A stretch of 64,000 bases of DNA from Mesoflavibacter zeaxanthinifaciens DSM 18436 (lineage in GTDB: Bacteria > Bacteroidota > Bacteroidia > Flavobacteriales > Flavobacteriaceae). The notes below the pieces were generated by a model that had not been told where the DNA came from, ran no database searches, and was given only the letters and a program-made list of their open reading frames with translations. Positions 8,374 through 16,994 of this stretch are shown here, one piece after another (positions within the stretch are counted from its first letter, which is position 1; each line of letters opens with the position of its first letter). The stretch lies in the NCBI RefSeq assembly GCF_000422365.1, contig NZ_AULQ01000006.1:191001-255000 (forward strand), in the 5' to 3' direction. A program made the translations under genes and the position numbers.

Positions 8374-8406
8374 AAAAACGCAACCATAACCAAGGTTGCG
8401 TTTTTT
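8374..8406 (+). terminator. Intrinsic terminator after the DUF4870 gene
   Basis: A perfect 7-bp stem CGCAACC (8379-8385) / GGTTGCG (8394-8400) with an 8-base loop is followed by six T and preceded by five A. The same stem sequence is reused in the terminator at 17016-17047. Confidence 0.9.
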
Positions 8407-8407
8407 G

Positions 8408-8436
8408 TTTAGAAAAAAAACAACTGCTTACAGAAA
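8408..8436 (+). promoter_or_regulatory. Tandem repeat with 21-bp period before the sensor kinase gene (candidate LytTR site)
   Basis: TTTAGAAA at 8408 and TACAGAAA at 8429 are one-mismatch versions of the TTCAGAAA pairs before the genes at 12269 and 13672, with the same 21-bp period. The distance from the second repeat to the end of the -7 TTTG is 44 bases here, against 45 in both other cases. It probably binds the LytTR regulator encoded at 11403, giving autoregulation. Confidence 0.55.
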
Positions 8437-8445
8437 AAACAAATC

Positions 8446-8473
8446 TTGATTAGCTAATTAAATATTAAGTTTG
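8446..8473 (+). promoter_or_regulatory. Bacteroidota-type promoter for the sensor kinase gene
   Basis: TTG at 8446-8448, a 17-base spacer and TAAGTTTG at 8466-8473 match the -33/-7 promoter consensus. The start codon follows 13 bases later. This is the best full promoter match noticed in the window. Confidence 0.65.
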
Positions 8474-8486
8474 CTAATTATAAGCT

Positions 8487-11399
8487 ATGCAATTAATATT
8501 TAGATACATACTATTTGTTTTTATTATTGGTTTGGGAAGCGTTGCTCATGCTCAAAATCCTGTTTTTGTGCATATGTCTAAAGTCTCAAATCTTCCAGAT
8601 GTTGAGTTTTATGATATTGCCGAAGATAACCAAAATTACATGTGGCTTGCGGCAAACAAAGGTTTATACCGTTACAACGGAAAAAATTACCAACACTTTA
8701 GTCATCCTCAACAAAGAGGAAATTCTCTTTTTCAATTAAAGTTTGACACAAAAAACCGACTTTGGTGCAACAATATTTACGGGCAATTATTTTATGTTGA
8801 AAACGATAGTTTAAAACTATTTTATGACGCTAGCAAATTAGTAAATGGACAATTAGCAAATTTTGAAATACTAGAAAACAGCATACGTTTATTCACTGTT
8901 ATTGGCATTTTTGATATTGATAAAAGCACCAAACAAGTAACCGAAGTATTTAAAGGCATGTGTATTACAAATGCTAAGGATGGTAACAATAACTACACAT
9001 TTATAATTAATCTTGAAGGCGATTTAGAGCGTCATCGATTATACAAATTCGATAATAATACAAAAACAAAAATACTTGAAATCACAAGTAGAAATCGTAT
9101 ACAATCACCAAGAATTTTCGCCTTTAAAAACACTGTTTTTTTTACACACAAAAGTTCTAATGGAAACATCATTTATAAAGTATATAAAACCAAAAACACA
9201 TCAAAAAAAGTAGTAACGCCTGCTAGATTAAAAAATGAAACCATTTACAATGTTTTAAATATTGAAAACAACTATTGGTTTTTAACCAGTTCTGGCGTGT
9301 TTGTTTATGGTTTTGAAAATGAAATTTTCACGTTTAAAGAACAACTTTTTAAAACAGAATCAATTACAGATGTTCAAGTAGATTTTAATAAAAACTACTG
9401 GTTTACAACCTTAGATAATGGTGTGTTTGTGGCGCCAAACTTAAATATTCGTCGTGTTGAATTATCAAATATAGACTCTAAAATTACGGCTTCTGCAGCC
9501 TTACAAAACAATCAATTTGTTTTAGGAACCAATGACGGTAAATTACTGTTTTACAATCACAATCAGCTAATAAAAACACTGCAATTACCAGGTAAAAAAA
9601 TCATTGGGAAATTATTTTTTGATGCTCAAAACGAAAAACTAATTGTAAGTATTAATGCTTCAGAATCGTTTGTGGTAAATCTAAAAAATGACAGAATTTT
9701 AGACGTAAATAATCAATTTTCAGTTGCTAAAACCTTTTCAAAAATTGATGACAACACCTTGTTTTATGGTAATTATCGTCAAGGTATTGTATATAAAAAT
9801 CCGTTTAATCATCCTGAACAACAAATTCTTAAAGAAAGTCGTGTCAAAGCTTCAGTAGTTTCTAATAATCACTTGTTTGTTTCGTACATCGACGGACTTT
9901 ATAAATACAATACGCAAACATTTAATGCAGAAGAAATCTTATTCAATTCTAAAAGTTTACTGGTTAATACACTAACTAAAACCAACGGAACAGTTTGGGT
10001 TGCAACTCAGCACAATGGATTATTGAAATACGAAAACAATACGCTAAAACCTTCAGGAATTAACCTTCCTGAAAACCTTCAAATTAATGCCATTAATGCC
10101 GATGGTTTAGTGCTTTGGATTTCAACTGATGCTGGATTGTTTCAATATCATACAAAAACACATCAGCTTAAATCGTTAAGTGCGCAAGATGGATTAAATA
10201 CAGCGGTTAATGATTTTTTAATTCTTCAAAATCAAATTATTGTAAGCTTGCCTAAAGCATTTTATGTGCTACCAAAATCAGATGCACTGTTCAAAGCTTT
10301 TAAAACAGCCAAGGTTAGGGTAGAAGCTGTAAAAATTAACGACCGCGACACGTTAGTATCAACCAATTACAAACTACCGCACCATTTAAATAAAATTGAT
10401 ATTTCGTTCAACTCAAACGGATTTCAATCTAACCAACACGTAAGCTACCAATACCGTGTTAAAGAGATAGATACAAGTTGGCAAAACATACCGCTAAATA
10501 CACATTTTGTTACGTTTAATAGTTTGTCTAGTGGCACATATTCTTTTGAATTAAAAGCTAAAAATTTAAGTGCAAAAGAAGCTGTTTTTGCAACACCAAT
10601 AACCTTTGCAATTGCTAAACCATTTTGGGAAACCTATTGGTTTTATGGTTTAGTTATAGCAACAATAATAGGTTTAGTTTGGCTCTATTTTAGATGGCGA
10701 TTACAACAAAAAGAAGCACAACGTATTGCCGAAGTCGATAAAATTTTAATCGATAAAAAAATAACCAATTTAAGGTTGGAAAATCTGCGTTCGCAAATGA
10801 ATCCGCATTTCATTTTCAATGCCTTAAATTCTATTCAAGATTATATCATTTCAAACGAAAAGGAATTGGCAAGCTCGTATTTAGTAAAGTTTAGCCGATT
10901 AATCCGCATGTATTTAGATTACAGTCAGCAAAACGAAATTACTTTAGAAGAAGAATTAAACGCCTTAAAACTGTATTTAGAATTAGAAAAAGTTCGTTTT
11001 GAAGATGAATTGGAATATACTATTTCAGTTGATAATCAATTGAAAACAAAACAGATAAAAGTACCGTCGTTATTCATTCAACCGTATGTTGAAAATGCTT
11101 TAAAACACGGATTGTTACACAAATTAAACGACCGAAAATTACATATTGAAGCGAAAATTATTCAGCAAAATAAATTAGAAATTACCGTTGAAGATAACGG
11201 GATTGGTCGCGCACAATCCGAAAAATTAAAACGACCAAACCAACAGCATAAACCGTTTGCTACTAAAGCTAACGAAGAACGTGTTCATCTTTATAAAAAC
11301 AAATTAAAACGTGATATAGCCATAACTACCAACGATTTGTATGACGAAAACGACGTAGCTGCAGGTACAAAAGTGGTCATCACCATGCCAATACATTAA
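8487..11399 (+). CDS. Membrane sensor histidine kinase, beta-propeller + Y_Y_Y + LytS-type kinase
   Basis: Sensor kinase of 970 residues. A signal peptide (to about residue 22) is followed by a long periplasmic region of two-component-regulator propeller repeats, for example IAEDNQNYMWLAANKGLYRY, WVATQHNGLLKYEN and LWISTDAGLFQYHT. A Y_Y_Y domain (about 630-705, with YQYRVKEIDTSWQ) and one transmembrane helix (about 717-735) come next. The cytoplasmic part is a short coiled linker and a His_kinase (LytS/YehU-type) domain with LRSQMNPHFIFNALNSIQ, placing the phosphorylated His at 774. The ATPase N-box ENALKHGL and G-box DNGIGRAQ follow. The architecture is like the hybrid sensors of Bacteroides, but without the receiver. 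The partner regulator starts 3 bases downstream. The ligand is unknown. Confidence 0.93.
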   Translation: MQLIFRYILFVFIIGLGSVAHAQNPVFVHMSKVSNLPDVEFYDIAEDNQNYMWLAANKGLYRYNGKNYQHFSHPQQRGNSLFQLKFDTKNRLWCNNIYGQLFYVENDSLKLFYDASKLVNGQLANFEILENSIRLFTVIGIFDIDKSTKQVTEVFKGMCITNAKDGNNNYTFIINLEGDLERHRLYKFDNNTKTKILEITSRNRIQSPRIFAFKNTVFFTHKSSNGNIIYKVYKTKNTSKKVVTPARLKNETIYNVLNIENNYWFLTSSGVFVYGFENEIFTFKEQLFKTESITDVQVDFNKNYWFTTLDNGVFVAPNLNIRRVELSNIDSKITASAALQNNQFVLGTNDGKLLFYNHNQLIKTLQLPGKKIIGKLFFDAQNEKLIVSINASESFVVNLKNDRILDVNNQFSVAKTFSKIDDNTLFYGNYRQGIVYKNPFNHPEQQILKESRVKASVVSNNHLFVSYIDGLYKYNTQTFNAEEILFNSKSLLVNTLTKTNGTVWVATQHNGLLKYENNTLKPSGINLPENLQINAINADGLVLWISTDAGLFQYHTKTHQLKSLSAQDGLNTAVNDFLILQNQIIVSLPKAFYVLPKSDALFKAFKTAKVRVEAVKINDRDTLVSTNYKLPHHLNKIDISFNSNGFQSNQHVSYQYRVKEIDTSWQNIPLNTHFVTFNSLSSGTYSFELKAKNLSAKEAVFATPITFAIAKPFWETYWFYGLVIATIIGLVWLYFRWRLQQKEAQRIAEVDKILIDKKITNLRLENLRSQMNPHFIFNALNSIQDYIISNEKELASSYLVKFSRLIRMYLDYSQQNEITLEEELNALKLYLELEKVRFEDELEYTISVDNQLKTKQIKVPSLFIQPYVENALKHGLLHKLNDRKLHIEAKIIQQNKLEITVEDNGIGRAQSEKLKRPNQQHKPFATKANEERVHLYKNKLKRDIAITTNDLYDENDVAAGTKVVITMPIH

Positions 11400-11402
11400 G
11401 AT

Positions 11403-12155
11403 ATGAAAGCGATAATTATAGACGACGAAAAACGCGCCAGACATTTACTATCAAACTTGCTAACCGAACATTGTGCAAGTATTACTAGCATTGAAGAAGC
11501 GCAAGATTTAGCATCTGGTGTAGACTTGATTAAAACCAGTAAACCAGATGTTGTTTTTTTAGATATTGAAATGCCAAATCAGTCTGGATTAGACATTTTA
11601 GAATACTTCCCAAACCAGATAGATTTTAAAATTATTTTCGTTACAGCGTACAATCAATACGCAATTGAAGCTTTCAAATTATCGGCTGTAGATTATCTAT
11701 TAAAACCAGTAGATACAAATGAGTTAAAAGAAGCTGTAGCAAAAGCTGAAGAAGCCATAAAAGCTAATAATTTAAACGACCAGTTAAACAAGTTACGCGA
11801 TTCGTTAAAGCAACTATCCATGGACAAAATTGCTTTAGAAATACCAAAAGGAATCATGTTCGCATCGCATAATGATATTGTGTATTTTGAAGCCGATGGT
11901 ATGTACACCAACGTGCAACTTATGGATGGTAAACAAAAAACCATTTGCAAACCGTTAAAACATTTTGTTGAGCAATTAGAACGTAATGCGATGTTTTTTA
12001 AATGCCATCGTTCGTATTTAATCAACTTAAAATATGTTGATGAATTGGTTAAAGATGATGGCGATTACTTATTAATGAATAATCAAAAACGCATCCCAAT
12101 TTCAAAATCTAAACGCGATCAGTTTCTTGAAGTGATTAAGGAAACCTTTATGTGA
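11403..12155 (+). CDS. LytTR-family response regulator
   Basis: Response regulator of 250 residues. The N-terminal receiver has acidic pocket DD7-8, phosphoacceptor Asp54 in VVFLDIEMP and the conserved Lys in DYLLKPVD. A linker helix leads to a C-terminal LytTR DNA-binding domain (about 148-248, with DIVYFEADGMYTNVQL and MFFKCHRSYLINLKYVDEL). It follows the kinase gene by 3 bases, so it is the cognate partner. LytTR proteins bind tandem direct repeats about two helical turns apart. Such repeats with an exact 21-bp period lie before the kinase gene and before the next two transcription units (12269 and 13672), which I therefore propose as its direct targets. Confidence 0.93.
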   Translation: MKAIIIDDEKRARHLLSNLLTEHCASITSIEEAQDLASGVDLIKTSKPDVVFLDIEMPNQSGLDILEYFPNQIDFKIIFVTAYNQYAIEAFKLSAVDYLLKPVDTNELKEAVAKAEEAIKANNLNDQLNKLRDSLKQLSMDKIALEIPKGIMFASHNDIVYFEADGMYTNVQLMDGKQKTICKPLKHFVEQLERNAMFFKCHRSYLINLKYVDELVKDDGDYLLMNNQKRIPISKSKRDQFLEVIKETFM

Positions 12156-12179
12156 TTTAGTTGAAATTTTTGAAATTCC

Positions 12180-12210
12180 TTCAGAAAAAAAAACATCATT
12201 TTCAGAAAAA
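12180..12210 (+). promoter_or_regulatory. Tandem TTCAGAAA repeat, 21-bp period (candidate LytTR operator)
   Basis: TTCAGAAAAAA at 12180 and TTCAGAAAAA at 12201 are direct repeats exactly 21 bases apart. A -7-like TTATTTTG follows at 12239-12246. The second repeat starts 68 bases before the ATG at 12269. The same arrangement is seen at 13580-13610. Confidence 0.65.
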
Positions 12211-12268
12211 ACTAAATTAAGAATAGTGCTTAAGTGCTTTATTTTGAAGTCCACTAAACACAATTCTT

Positions 12269-13486
12269 ATGAAAAAAATAGTTCTATTATTCGTTTTGGC
12301 ATTATGCTATAACGTCTCGCATGCGCAATTTGGTAAAATGCTTAAAAAGAAAGCCAAAGCAGCAGTAGAGAAGAAGTTAGATAAAAAAGAAAGTAGCAAT
12401 TCGTCTTCAAAATCTGAAAACGCTTCAGGAATGGTTGGCAGTTCTTCAACCGAAAATTCATCAAAAACAGAATATACTGATGAAGAATTTAAAGCAGAAT
12501 TAGCCAAAAAATATCCAAACGACCAGGCAAAGCAAGATTTATACTATCAAAAATATCTTGAGAAAAAGCAACAAGAAGCAGATGCTAATAAGCCTAAATC
12601 TGCAAATTCAGTAAGTGATGAGTTTTTATACATGTCTTACCCATTTGCAATGACAAAAGGCATGAGCGCAGTTGGTGTAGATCGTGTAAAAATAAGAAGC
12701 CAAATGACAGATATGGGTGATAATGTTGACTTGTTACCTGCACAAGATCCAGATTATGCATGGTTGCGCTTTTTAACAACACCAGAACTAGTAGCCATGT
12801 CACCAGAAGGTTATGTTGGTTACGAGTTGGTTTCGGGAATGTTTACAACCAAAGTAGGTGCAGACCGATCGCAAACTTTAGAGCTTGGTACAGGTATGCC
12901 AATTTTAGTAAGAGGAATGTTAATTGCAGACGATGTATTTGTAATTTACGCAGCTTCGCACCAAGGTGGACACGCATTTAACGTACCATCATATATGCAC
13001 GAAAAAGATATTACTATTTTAAACGTAATAGGTAAAGGCGATCAACAATTTCATTTAGAGTGGTTAGAAAAAGCGAAGCCAATTGTAAAAGAGTTTGAAG
13101 CCACGTTAAAAGCAAATTATGATGCAGCTGCAAAATCAACCATGGATGCTATAAAAATGCCAAAAGCAGGTAGCATGAATAGTAATGCGTCATTAGTGAG
13201 TTTTGCTAAAGAAAATGTATCAAAAACCATTGCCAAAGATGGTGCAAAACTTCTAAAGTTAAATATAGAATCTAACGATTGGAGTATTGTAAAAAACAAA
13301 TACACAGGTCGTATTTTATACCGTTGGATCAAAGGTGCTTTTACAGAAAAAAATAAAAATAACGACTGCTATTTACAAGGTTTTTTAATCAAGCAACAGT
13401 ACAATGGTAGTGGTTATGGTAGCTCACAATTTGGTGGTGTTATTCACGGTCAAATGCCCTACGGACAAAAAATGAATTGCGAATAA
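12269..13486 (+). CDS. Exported protein of unknown function, probable target of the adjacent two-component system
   Basis: I do not recognise this 405-residue protein. It has a clear signal peptide (MKKIVLLFVLALCYNVSHAQ, cleavage after HAQ or SHA). A lysine-rich segment (FGKMLKKKAKAAVEKKLDKK) and a low-complexity Ser/Asn/Glu stretch (about residues 40-75) follow, and then a globular region from about 110 to the end. There is no T9SS sorting domain and no lipobox. The mature N-terminus may be flexible and positively charged. Its promoter carries the 21-bp-period direct repeat shared with the kinase and the beta-helix protein gene, so it is probably induced by the LytTR regulator. A terminator follows it. 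Confidence 0.75.
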   Translation: MKKIVLLFVLALCYNVSHAQFGKMLKKKAKAAVEKKLDKKESSNSSSKSENASGMVGSSSTENSSKTEYTDEEFKAELAKKYPNDQAKQDLYYQKYLEKKQQEADANKPKSANSVSDEFLYMSYPFAMTKGMSAVGVDRVKIRSQMTDMGDNVDLLPAQDPDYAWLRFLTTPELVAMSPEGYVGYELVSGMFTTKVGADRSQTLELGTGMPILVRGMLIADDVFVIYAASHQGGHAFNVPSYMHEKDITILNVIGKGDQQFHLEWLEKAKPIVKEFEATLKANYDAAAKSTMDAIKMPKAGSMNSNASLVSFAKENVSKTIAKDGAKLLKLNIESNDWSIVKNKYTGRILYRWIKGAFTEKNKNNDCYLQGFLIKQQYNGSGYGSSQFGGVIHGQMPYGQKMNCE

Positions 13487-13514
13487 TTAATAAACGCTAT
13501 TAACCAAAATTTTT

Positions 13515-13543
13515 AAAGCCTGCTTATTTAAGCAGGCTTTTTT
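13515..13543 (+). terminator. Intrinsic terminator after the exported-protein gene
   Basis: Stem AAGCCTGCT (13516-13524) / AGCAGGCTT (13531-13539), loop TATTTA, followed by a run of T. The 9-bp stem is perfect. Confidence 0.9.
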
Positions 13544-13579
13544 ATTTGATTTAAATGTAAGAATACTCTTTATTATATA

Positions 13580-13610
13580 TTCAGAAAGAAATTAGACCTA
13601 TTCAGAAAAA
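13580..13610 (+). promoter_or_regulatory. Tandem TTCAGAAA repeat, 21-bp period (candidate LytTR operator)
   Basis: TTCAGAAAGAA at 13580 and TTCAGAAAAA at 13601 are again 21 bases apart. The -7-like TTATTTTG is at 13639-13646, the same 38 bases from the second repeat as in the promoter at 12180-12246. Neither promoter has a good TTG at -33, which fits dependence on an activator. Confidence 0.65.
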
Positions 13611-13671
13611 AGCAAATTGAAAACCTTTAAAAGTGCAGTTATTTTGTTGTTGAATATTAATCTCAACTACA

Positions 13672-16440
13672 ATGAAAAAAACATTACTCTTATTAACCTT
13701 TTTAGTGTTTGGTTTTACGCAAGCACAAACCATAATTTATGTAGATGTTGATGCAACAGGTGCAAATAACGGAAGCAGTTGGGCAAATGCCTACACAAGT
13801 CTTCATAGTGCTTTAGGAATCCAAACCATAACAGGTGCTCAAATTTGGATAGCAGAAGGAACTTACATGCCTGTTAATAAAAACACACCAATGCTAAACC
13901 AGTACGGAGTTAGTATTTATGGTGGTTTTGTGGGTACTGAAACGTCTCTTTCGCAACGTAGCACAGATCCTTGGGCACATCCTGTATATTTAACGGGAGA
14001 TTTAGCGCTAGATGATGCTAATGAATTACCTAGTGCAACATCTGCAAATAAAACAGATAATGCACCAATTATTCTTAAAGTAGAGCCTAATTCAGCAAGT
14101 AAAACTCAAGAAATTACTCTAGACCGATTGCATTTTGTTAATGCTTATGGTGGTAGTGCATTGTATAGCCATCCATCATCTTCAAATGAAGTGCAAAGAA
14201 AAATTACAGTGCAAAATTGTAGATTTTCAAGAAATTATGCTTCAACAAGACCAGCAATTGATATTTGGTCTAATGAAACTGTAAATGATTATCCTTTTGA
14301 GTTATTTAATAGTATACTAGATGAAAATGTATCTAATTCAGGATATGCATTTGAATATCGTATCACAAATTATATAAATCTTGAGCATGATATTTTTATT
14401 GCTAATAATATGTTTATAGGTAACAAAGTAGAAAGTGCTAATGCTTCAGGTAGTGTTGCACGTTTTATAAGCGCAACAGGTGGTTCAACAAGACTAACGG
14501 TGTTTTTTCAAAATAACACGTTAGCTTTAAATGAAGAAGGTAGCAATGTAACATCTGATGTAGCTAGCCCAATACGTTTTGAGACACTTGGTTCAGCAGA
14601 AACGATAGGAAGATGGAGTAATAATTTGTATTACAGTAACTATGGTACATCAGACTACATAGGAACCCAAGATACAAGTTCTTCAACTATAGCACTTGGT
14701 TATGCCAATGCATCAGAGTTTACACCTGTAATAGGTTCGGCTAATTTACTATCTAATTACACTTTATCAGAGAGTCCTTTTGTTGATATTTTCTCTGGAA
14801 ATTTTATACCTGTTTCAGCTTATAGAGATAATGGAGAAAGTTCTATCCCAGGATATTATAGCAATATTAATCCTACGACCGATTGTTTTATGAATCCTAG
14901 AAAAAATGCAGATTCATCGATAGGTTTAGGAGCCATTCAATATACAGATACAGCTATGCTAACAGGTCCAGGAAACATAGCGCCTTTATCATTACCAGAA
15001 CCACCAACAGTTATATACGTTGACGCAAGTGCTACTGGAGCTAATGATGGTACAAGTTGGACTAATGCTTATACTTCTTTAGATGACGCTAATATACCTA
15101 CTTTAGGTAGTGGATCTAAAATATTTGTAAAATCAGGGACTTATAAATTAACATCTGGTGAAATTAGTATTAATTCAGAAATAGAGATTTATGGTGGTTT
15201 TAACGGAACAGAAACTTCTGAAACAGATAGAGATTTATCTATTGTAAATACAAGTAATGCAACTATAATTTCTGGTGATATATTAGATGATGATATTTCT
15301 GGTGATTTTACGCAAAACAAATCAGATAATTCATCAAGTTTATTCAATTTAGCAGCTAATAATGTAATTATTGATGGTTTTGTTTTAAGTAACTTTTATA
15401 CAACATCGGGTAGCCCAATTGTAAAAGTAGCCACCAACGTTTCAAATTTTGAATTATCTAATACGCTAATTAATAATAATTATAGCAACAGTATTTTATT
15501 TGATTGGAGAACTTTTTCAGGTACTGTATCAATCAATAATGTTGCCATTACAGATAATCAAACTAATAATGGTCTTATACTACTACAACATAACGATACC
15601 AACTCAAGTACTTTAGAATCCAATTGGTCTAATGTGTTAGTTGCTAATAATACTTATAACGCAGATTGGGGAGCAATTTGGTTTAGAAGAGGAACTTTAA
15701 ATAATGATGGCAGACTATTTAAAAGTTCGTTAACCAATGTGTCTATTATAGATAATGTTAATAACCACGCATCTACCCAACAAGTTATTAATGTTAGTAG
15801 TGGAAGTGGTTGGGGAGTTTTTGAATTTAGAAACAGTCTTTTCTGGCAAAACAAATATAATGGAGGTCAATTAAGTACAGTAGATATTGAAAACAGTAAA
15901 ACTGCTGAAGGAGATATCCAAACAGTTAGGGTATATAATACTATTGCTATGGTTGGTAGCGGTGTAACTTCTGGAACTTTTGATAATTCAAATATCACAC
16001 TTTTAGACCCAACGACTGATAACTTAAATTTAGATGCCGAATACAAACCTACATCAGCTTCAAACTATATTGTAGATCAAGGAGATAACACTTACTACGA
16101 TATAGCTTTATTTGGTGATTTAGATTTATCAGGTAACACAAGAGTTTTTAACACTACGATAGATTTAGGAGCTTACGAGTACAATTCTACATTAAGTGTT
16201 GATGATATTTCTTTAGATGAAAACTCAGTAAAATTATATCCTAATCCAGCTACAGACGTTGTAAATATTAAGACTAATCAAACTATTAAAAATGTAACAG
16301 TTTTTAATGTAAATGGTCAAAAAGTACTTGATTTTGCTAATCAATCTCAAATTAACATTTCTAATTTACCAACAGGAATGTACTTTTTAAACATAACTTC
16401 TAACCAATCAAACCAAACAATAAAAATCTTAAAACAATAA
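13672..16440 (+). CDS. T9SS-exported beta-helix protein with internal duplication
   Basis: Secreted or surface protein of 922 residues. It has a signal peptide (MKKTLLLLTFLVFGFTQAQ). Two homologous halves each start with a copy of the same motif: IIYVDVDATGANNGSSWANA at about residue 23 and VIYVDASATGANDGTSWTNA at about 445. Each half then continues into right-handed parallel beta-helix sequence (choice-of-anchor Q / pectate-lyase-like), with GTYMPVNKNTPMLNQYGVSIYG-type turns. The C-terminal 75 residues (VKLYPNPATDVVNI through NLPTGMYFLNI) are a type A T9SS sorting domain, so export is through the gliding/T9SS machinery. The substrate is unknown; adhesion or polysaccharide binding is typical of such proteins. 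The lipoprotein gene 8 bases downstream is probably cotranscribed. The upstream direct repeats suggest LytTR control. Confidence 0.88.
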   Translation: MKKTLLLLTFLVFGFTQAQTIIYVDVDATGANNGSSWANAYTSLHSALGIQTITGAQIWIAEGTYMPVNKNTPMLNQYGVSIYGGFVGTETSLSQRSTDPWAHPVYLTGDLALDDANELPSATSANKTDNAPIILKVEPNSASKTQEITLDRLHFVNAYGGSALYSHPSSSNEVQRKITVQNCRFSRNYASTRPAIDIWSNETVNDYPFELFNSILDENVSNSGYAFEYRITNYINLEHDIFIANNMFIGNKVESANASGSVARFISATGGSTRLTVFFQNNTLALNEEGSNVTSDVASPIRFETLGSAETIGRWSNNLYYSNYGTSDYIGTQDTSSSTIALGYANASEFTPVIGSANLLSNYTLSESPFVDIFSGNFIPVSAYRDNGESSIPGYYSNINPTTDCFMNPRKNADSSIGLGAIQYTDTAMLTGPGNIAPLSLPEPPTVIYVDASATGANDGTSWTNAYTSLDDANIPTLGSGSKIFVKSGTYKLTSGEISINSEIEIYGGFNGTETSETDRDLSIVNTSNATIISGDILDDDISGDFTQNKSDNSSSLFNLAANNVIIDGFVLSNFYTTSGSPIVKVATNVSNFELSNTLINNNYSNSILFDWRTFSGTVSINNVAITDNQTNNGLILLQHNDTNSSTLESNWSNVLVANNTYNADWGAIWFRRGTLNNDGRLFKSSLTNVSIIDNVNNHASTQQVINVSSGSGWGVFEFRNSLFWQNKYNGGQLSTVDIENSKTAEGDIQTVRVYNTIAMVGSGVTSGTFDNSNITLLDPTTDNLNLDAEYKPTSASNYIVDQGDNTYYDIALFGDLDLSGNTRVFNTTIDLGAYEYNSTLSVDDISLDENSVKLYPNPATDVVNIKTNQTIKNVTVFNVNGQKVLDFANQSQINISNLPTGMYFLNITSNQSNQTIKILKQ

Positions 16441-16448
16441 TTTTTAAA

Positions 16449-16994
16449 ATGAAAAAATTAAACAAACTTGTAATATTATTTTGTCTTGCTTTAACTGTCT
16501 TAAATTGTTCTTCAGACGACGATAACAATACAGAAGAACCTCAAAACACAAATGTTATTACTTTAAATAATGAAACTTATGTTGTTAGTTCTGTTATCGT
16601 AGAGCCTGCATTAGGCAATAGTACTTTTGTAAGTTTTATCAATAAAAATGAAACGGAGTTTTTAGATGCTATAAATAATGGGACTCAACTTGATAATGTT
16701 AATGTATTTAATATACGCATTAGTCAAAGTCCATTAGCAGAACAAACATATAGTTTTTCTGATATGTCTAATTTTCAATTTGAAGAAAACGCTCAAATTA
16801 TTGATGGAGAACTAGAAGATGGTGATATATTATTAGATAGAAATAATTCTAATACAAATTTAAATGCATCTACAGGTAGTTTAACATTAGAAGTATACAC
16901 TACAGATCAAATTGAAATTAGTTTTCAGTTTACAAGAAATGATGGTGTAATAGTTAACGGAACTTATAAGGGAGATTATCTTTACTATGATTAA
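16449..16994 (+). CDS. Small lipoprotein, unknown function
   Basis: Protein of 181 residues with a lipoprotein signal ending VLNCSSDDDN (lipidated Cys at about 20). The acidic residues right after the cysteine resemble the lipoprotein export signal that sends proteins to the cell surface in Bacteroidota. The rest is beta-rich without a domain I recognise. It starts 8 bases after the beta-helix gene and ends at a shared terminator, so the two form one operon and may work together at the cell surface. Confidence 0.75.
   Translation: MKKLNKLVILFCLALTVLNCSSDDDNNTEEPQNTNVITLNNETYVVSSVIVEPALGNSTFVSFINKNETEFLDAINNGTQLDNVNVFNIRISQSPLAEQTYSFSDMSNFQFEENAQIIDGELEDGDILLDRNNSNTNLNASTGSLTLEVYTTDQIEISFQFTRNDGVIVNGTYKGDYLYYD

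Follow-up and report, generated by a model that had tools for sequence, protein, structure and literature searches.

The window, by which we mean the whole 64-kb stretch of DNA that was analysed, harbors a two-component system that is flanked by a DUF4870 gene upstream and by dnaN and gldG downstream (the latter two were named from their translations and conserved position). All features described here are located on the + strand. The genes of a sensor histidine kinase of 970 aa (8487..11399) and of a LytTR response regulator of 250 aa (11403..12155) are separated by an intergenic gap of 3 bp and form one operon. According to Pfam, the kinase comprises a Reg_prop propeller, a Y_Y_Y domain, a His_kinase domain (E 3.1e-22) and a weakly matching HATPase_c domain (21.2 bits vs a cut-off of 26.4); it also carries a signal peptide, and the operon of the regulator hence includes a cognate kinase of the LytS type (His_kinase, HATPase). 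Neither a receiver nor an AraC domain was found in the kinase by Pfam, which sets it apart from the one-protein HTCS.

The regulator consists of a receiver (Response_reg, E 1.6e-24), whose phospho-acceptor Asp is D54 within FLDIEMP, and a C-terminal LytTR domain (Pfam, E 8e-18), which matches the DNA-binding domains of AgrA and ComE in a structure comparison. It contains the sequence FFKCHRS, which represents the FhRhHRS motif defined for the LytTR DNA-binding domain (PMC4227749) with K instead of R. Further downstream follow the gene of an exported protein of 405 aa (12269..13486), a hairpin resembling an intrinsic terminator (13515..13540), which is located between this gene and the next promoter, and the gene of a T9SS-secreted protein of 922 aa with two beta-helix regions (13672..16440). 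A putative lipoprotein gene (181 aa, 16449..16994) starts 8 bp past the beta-helix gene and is probably co-transcribed with it.

Paired boxes are located before the kinase-regulator operon (8408..8437, a candidate autoregulation site), before the gene of the 405-aa protein (12180..12209) and before the beta-helix gene (13580..13609). The earlier note had described them as direct repeats with an exact 21-bp period at 8408/8429, 12180/12201 and 13580/13601, and we could confirm these positions and the period as well as the claimed single mismatch in each repeat of the kinase promoter, where the repeats read TTTAGAAA (8408) and TACAGAAA (8429), vs two copies of TTCAGAAA at both of the other sites. 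The repeat is wider than the earlier note had it, since the first box is followed by RAAA and the second by AA. The distances of 44, 45 and 45 bases between the second repeat and the end of TTTG (8473, 12246 and 13646) were reproduced as well, and correspond to 45, 46 and 46 if counted inclusively. A terminator-like hairpin at 8374-8405 ends directly before the first box and possibly insulates the kinase promoter from DUF4870.

If up to 3 mismatches are allowed, the loose TTCAGAAA pair has 9 matches in the 64-kb window vs 2.6 expected, and the longer motif TTYAGAAARAAA-N9-TWYAGAAAA has exactly three (8408, 12180 and 13580), with none in 100 dinucleotide shuffles. Since the present sites and their orthologues served to define this longer motif, it is the searches in other genomes that count as independent tests.

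Conservation of the boxes and promoter spacing

A scan of species genomes led to 80 loci, about 45 of which encode a regulator that is 74-99% identical to the one in the window; the latter genomes include Winogradskyella, Mangrovimonas, Xanthomarina, Lacinutrix, Tamlana, Olleya, Kordia and others, and the related sequences in these comparisons are non-independent. The loci are arranged in the order box-kinase-regulator, an optional box-405-aa gene and box-T9SS gene. Where the 405-aa gene, an optional cassette with 83-98% identity where present, is missing, the T9SS gene follows directly after the regulator and keeps its own box, from which we conclude that the box is tied to the gene rather than to its place in the locus. 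The earlier note had made its proposal dependent on conservation of the repeats near orthologues, and indeed they are conserved with fixed spacing at nearly every orthologous locus examined.

The distance from the start of the second box to the end of TTTG is 45 or 46 bases in all of the 105 orthologous sites found. It amounts to 45 (31 sites) or 46 (6 sites) in the 37 kinase promoters, and to 46 in each of the 25 promoters of the 405-aa gene and each of the 43 promoters of the T9SS gene. Between box and TTTG, the spacer DNA varies among the kinase promoters, and also among some of the T9SS promoters.

The -7 elements are TAAGTTTG in the kinase promoter (8466..8473) and TTATTTTG before both the 405-aa gene (12239..12246) and the beta-helix gene (13639..13646); the consensus for this element is TAnnTTTG. 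As this consensus is placed at -12 to -5 (PMC9723704), the boxes are located at about -71 to -42, and the centre of the pair at about -56, which is close to that of AgrA sites (near -60, PMC4227749). A -33-like TTA (405-aa gene) or TTG (beta-helix gene) is found 16 bases past the start of the second box, and target promoters keep such a TTG/TTA 19 bp upstream of a -7 element from which the usual TA is missing. The kinase promoter of the window has no clear -33 TTG, and the kinase promoters of orthologous loci likewise have TAAGTTTG without a clear -33. The -7/-33 elements are sub-optimal, as in activator-dependent promoters.

We infer activation rather than repression from the box position alone. 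The evidence for binding would be identical if the same regulator repressed, or both activated and repressed, until a signal arrives, and the direction of regulation is unreadable from sequence; however, the boxes end upstream of -33 and overlap neither -33 nor -7, and the sub-optimal -7/-33 elements likewise speak against repression, which we consider unlikely.

Co-occurrence and co-variation of boxes and regulator

Among 149 genomes of the family, a regulator with at least 94% identity is encoded in 8, all of which contain the strict pattern, whereas only two further genomes (G064 and G113) do so. The strict pattern has 23 matches in the 149 genomes, 20 at the regulator locus and 3 elsewhere, and the reversed-pattern control has a single match across all of them. 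These three, in G121, G064 and G113, were rejected as targets, since they are apparently located inside reading frames (by eye) and lack a TTTG at 45-46. With 2 mismatches allowed, the loose TTCAGAAA pair is not enriched genome-wide relative to its reversed control (33 vs 31 matches), and therefore we do not claim further targets. Combining the loose pair with the TTTG spacing revealed no other convincing site in the own genome and one sister genome. Since the strict matches elsewhere apparently lie in coding sequence and no other convincing site emerged, the regulon looks local in these pattern searches. The earlier note had predicted a complete regulon, which is backed insofar as these searches of the genome yielded no further convincing site. 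Relatives of the regulator were not found on plasmids.

More divergent loci, which encode regulators with 45-58% identity, were searched for any 10-base direct repeat with a period of 14-29 and TTTG at 45-46, located up to 250 bp past the regulator gene. A period of 21 was present in 25 of 51 loci and every other period in 0-5; among 16 later loci, which include a few repeats of genomes already used, the period of 21 was present in 10 and the others in 0-2. Under these criteria, the repeat is absent in 6 of the 16 later loci and in half of the 51, and the few relatives outside Flavobacteriaceae yielded nothing in this test.

In one regulator clade, the box reads TTCACTAA or TTCATTAG, while both distances, 21 bp and 45/46 bp, are kept. 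This paralogous LytTR clade was seen in Lacinutrix, Olleya, Psychroserpens and Winogradskyella (L131, L132, L134, L141, L142, L145, L149 and L150). Its regulators share private residues at positions 70, 132, 167 and 184, plus K235R, of which 167, 184 and K235R are located in the LytTR domain. Residue 167 adjoins the equivalent of AgrA H169 in a structure alignment; we take H169 and R233 to be DNA contacts of AgrA, in which case residues 234-237 of the regulator would bracket the equivalent of R233. DNA contacts described for AgrA are R198, N201 and S202 (PMC4227749). The change of the box together with the clade residues supports the view that the LytTR domain itself reads the box. The clade-diagnostic residues could also reflect phylogenetic hitchhiking, since 70 and 132, two of the four perfect markers, are located outside the DNA-binding domain.

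These data also bear on the question of what recognizes the repeats. Phased A-tracts or UP-like elements, which bend DNA or bind polymerase and require no specific regulator, would fit the A-run at the end of each box, the distance of two helical turns (21 bp) and the AT-rich region, but the TTYAG part of the box is as conserved as its A-run, the strict pattern is limited to those genomes and loci that have this regulator, and the box drifts to TTCACTAA in one regulator clade with the period being kept, so that this explanation appears extremely unlikely. It is also very unlikely that the sites are used by a DNA-binding protein other than the local LytTR regulator: although the own genome encodes further LytTR-type regulators, the sites accompany this regulator in all 8 genomes that encode it and change with the regulator clade, one of them is located just past the regulator stop codon, and 21-bp direct repeats fit a LytTR protein. 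The co-occurrence and co-variation tests thus point to the regulator encoded at 11403, which the earlier note had put forward as the candidate.

The LytTR regulator very probably binds the boxes as a dimer, autoactivates, and activates the optional exported protein and the T9SS beta-helix protein. According to this model, the co-transcribed propeller kinase would phosphorylate the 250-aa regulator, a dimer of which would occupy the two TTCAGAAA-type boxes 21 bp apart on one face of the DNA. Held in a constant place immediately before the -33 region, this dimer would contact sigma-A RNA polymerase. Activation of the kinase-regulator operon would result in positive feedback, and the optional exported protein as well as the T9SS beta-helix protein with the lipoprotein would be activated alongside.

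Secreted proteins and the history of the module

The 922-aa protein ends in a type A sorting domain (Por_Secre_tail, E 5.2e-15; TIGR04183, 7.2e-14), and its N-terminus is hydrophobic and ends in AQ (by eye, from the translation only). Its structural model is mostly beta, and a fold search led to PL6 alginate lyase, Pel9A beta-helices and T9SS C-terminal domains, with low overall TM-scores, so that the matches indicate the fold type only. Based on this model, the protein is likely to be a surface protein that binds or cleaves glycans. Beta-helix and sorting tail are common to the T9SS proteins across loci, while the N-terminus is interchangeable: LRR-containing forms (~687, 845 or 1030 aa), a beta-helix (window) and LamG (Flavobacterium) were found. 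Variable N-termini were seen in the window (13672-16440) and at loci L082, L093, L096 and L130.

The 405-aa protein belongs to no Pfam or NCBIfam family, and its model (pLDDT 62) gave no fold match below E 0.06; it is as conserved as DnaN. Because homologues with 40-50% identity adjoin related regulators in Mesonia and G054, the sequence comparison supports a functional link. Relatives beside related LytTR regulators were observed at L136, L138, L144, L154 and G054, sometimes in opposite orientation, and some loci contain a second, shorter relative of 168 aa.

Identity along the locus does not track the identity of the host genomes. L084 (Mangrovimonas yunxiaonensis) and L086 (Xanthomarina gelatinilytica) are 92-100%, mostly 98-100%, identical in DNA over ~4.7 kb (-500 to +4250, counted from the regulator start), vs 72-84% in the remainder of the kinase and 60-77% towards dnaN, and the four-fold sites of dnaN agree at only 0.50. 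For near-identical pairs, the pattern is direct evidence of exchange, in this case a recent one between genera at an orthologous site. Other pairs have different parts in common: L087 and L088 the whole module, L105 and L119 the transmitter and regulator without the sensor, and the window and L085 kinase, regulator and 405-aa protein without the T9SS gene.

In 29 genomes, the similarity of the regulator is uncorrelated with that of DnaN (-0.01), vs correlations of 0.67 between DnaN and GldG and of 0.65 between kinase transmitter and regulator; the T9SS gene correlates with neither transmitter nor regulator (0.00-0.02). Co-evolution of sensor and target, i.e. recognition of the beta-helix protein by the kinase, was considered and rejected, since the similarities of kinase sensor and target are uncorrelated (partial r -0.06). 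From these comparisons, sensor and secreted target appear to have been swapped, resulting in a mosaic between genera around a fixed core of regulator and box; the box itself varies little among many genera. We infer that exchange may be a routine event beyond the near-identical pairs. A tentative reading, to which we give somewhat less than even chances, is that regulator and box form a fixed interface, and that homologous recombination at one chromosomal site, beside dnaN/gldG, lets genera exchange the sensors and the secreted recognition proteins around it.

Relation to known systems

The box TTCAGAAA differs from that of AgrA, which is of the ACAGTTA type. Like the regulator described here, AgrA (S. 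aureus), ComE and SilA (streptococci) and YpdB (E. coli) combine a receiver with a LytTR domain, and their sites are two direct repeats with a period of ~21 bp immediately before the promoter (PMC2766830, PMC4227749, PMC4847170). Autoregulation and a small set of neighbouring targets, as proposed here, are typical of AgrA and SilA. The present system departs from this group in that its promoter is of the Bacteroidota sigma-A kind (TAnnTTTG), its sensor is a periplasmic propeller kinase, where the others sense a peptide or pyruvate, and its proposed targets are exported proteins, one of them secreted via T9SS. The periplasmic Reg_prop and Y_Y_Y domains are shared with Bacteroides HTCS, but kinase and regulator are separate proteins, the output domain is LytTR and not AraC, and no sus-type genes were seen in the module. 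The 922-aa protein has Por_Secre_tail and PL6/Pel9A-like folds in common with T9SS type A beta-helix substrates, whereas its N-terminal part varies between orthologous loci.

LytTR targets are defined as two repeats of 9-11 nt with 11-13 nt between them (PMC4847170), and the 21-bp period of all three sites and of their orthologues fits this definition. Since LytTR sites with a 21-bp period, made up of 9-bp repeats and 12-bp spacers, are known (PMC2766830), the system represents a further LytTR member with a new box. The claim of a new target motif thus holds for this box, but not for the type of arrangement, as 9-bp direct repeats ~12 bp apart are already known for LytTR; what stands out besides the box is an unusually well-delimited LytTR system with a noteworthy mosaic history. 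The literature consulted says little about the DNA that is bound by LytTR regulators in Bacteroidota, and keyword searches in it found no paper describing their target sites in this phylum.

The analysis provides the exact box, its spacing and a three-promoter candidate regulon for a regulator that is found in dozens of marine species, and the natural box variants paired with regulator variants represent material for working out LytTR specificity. If the reading of exchange between genera is true, the box would act as a plug-in promoter, by which a newly arriving T9SS adhesin or lyase comes under the control of the switch already in place, and the shuffling of sensors and secreted proteins at a constant core would show surface functions moving between genera without re-wiring.
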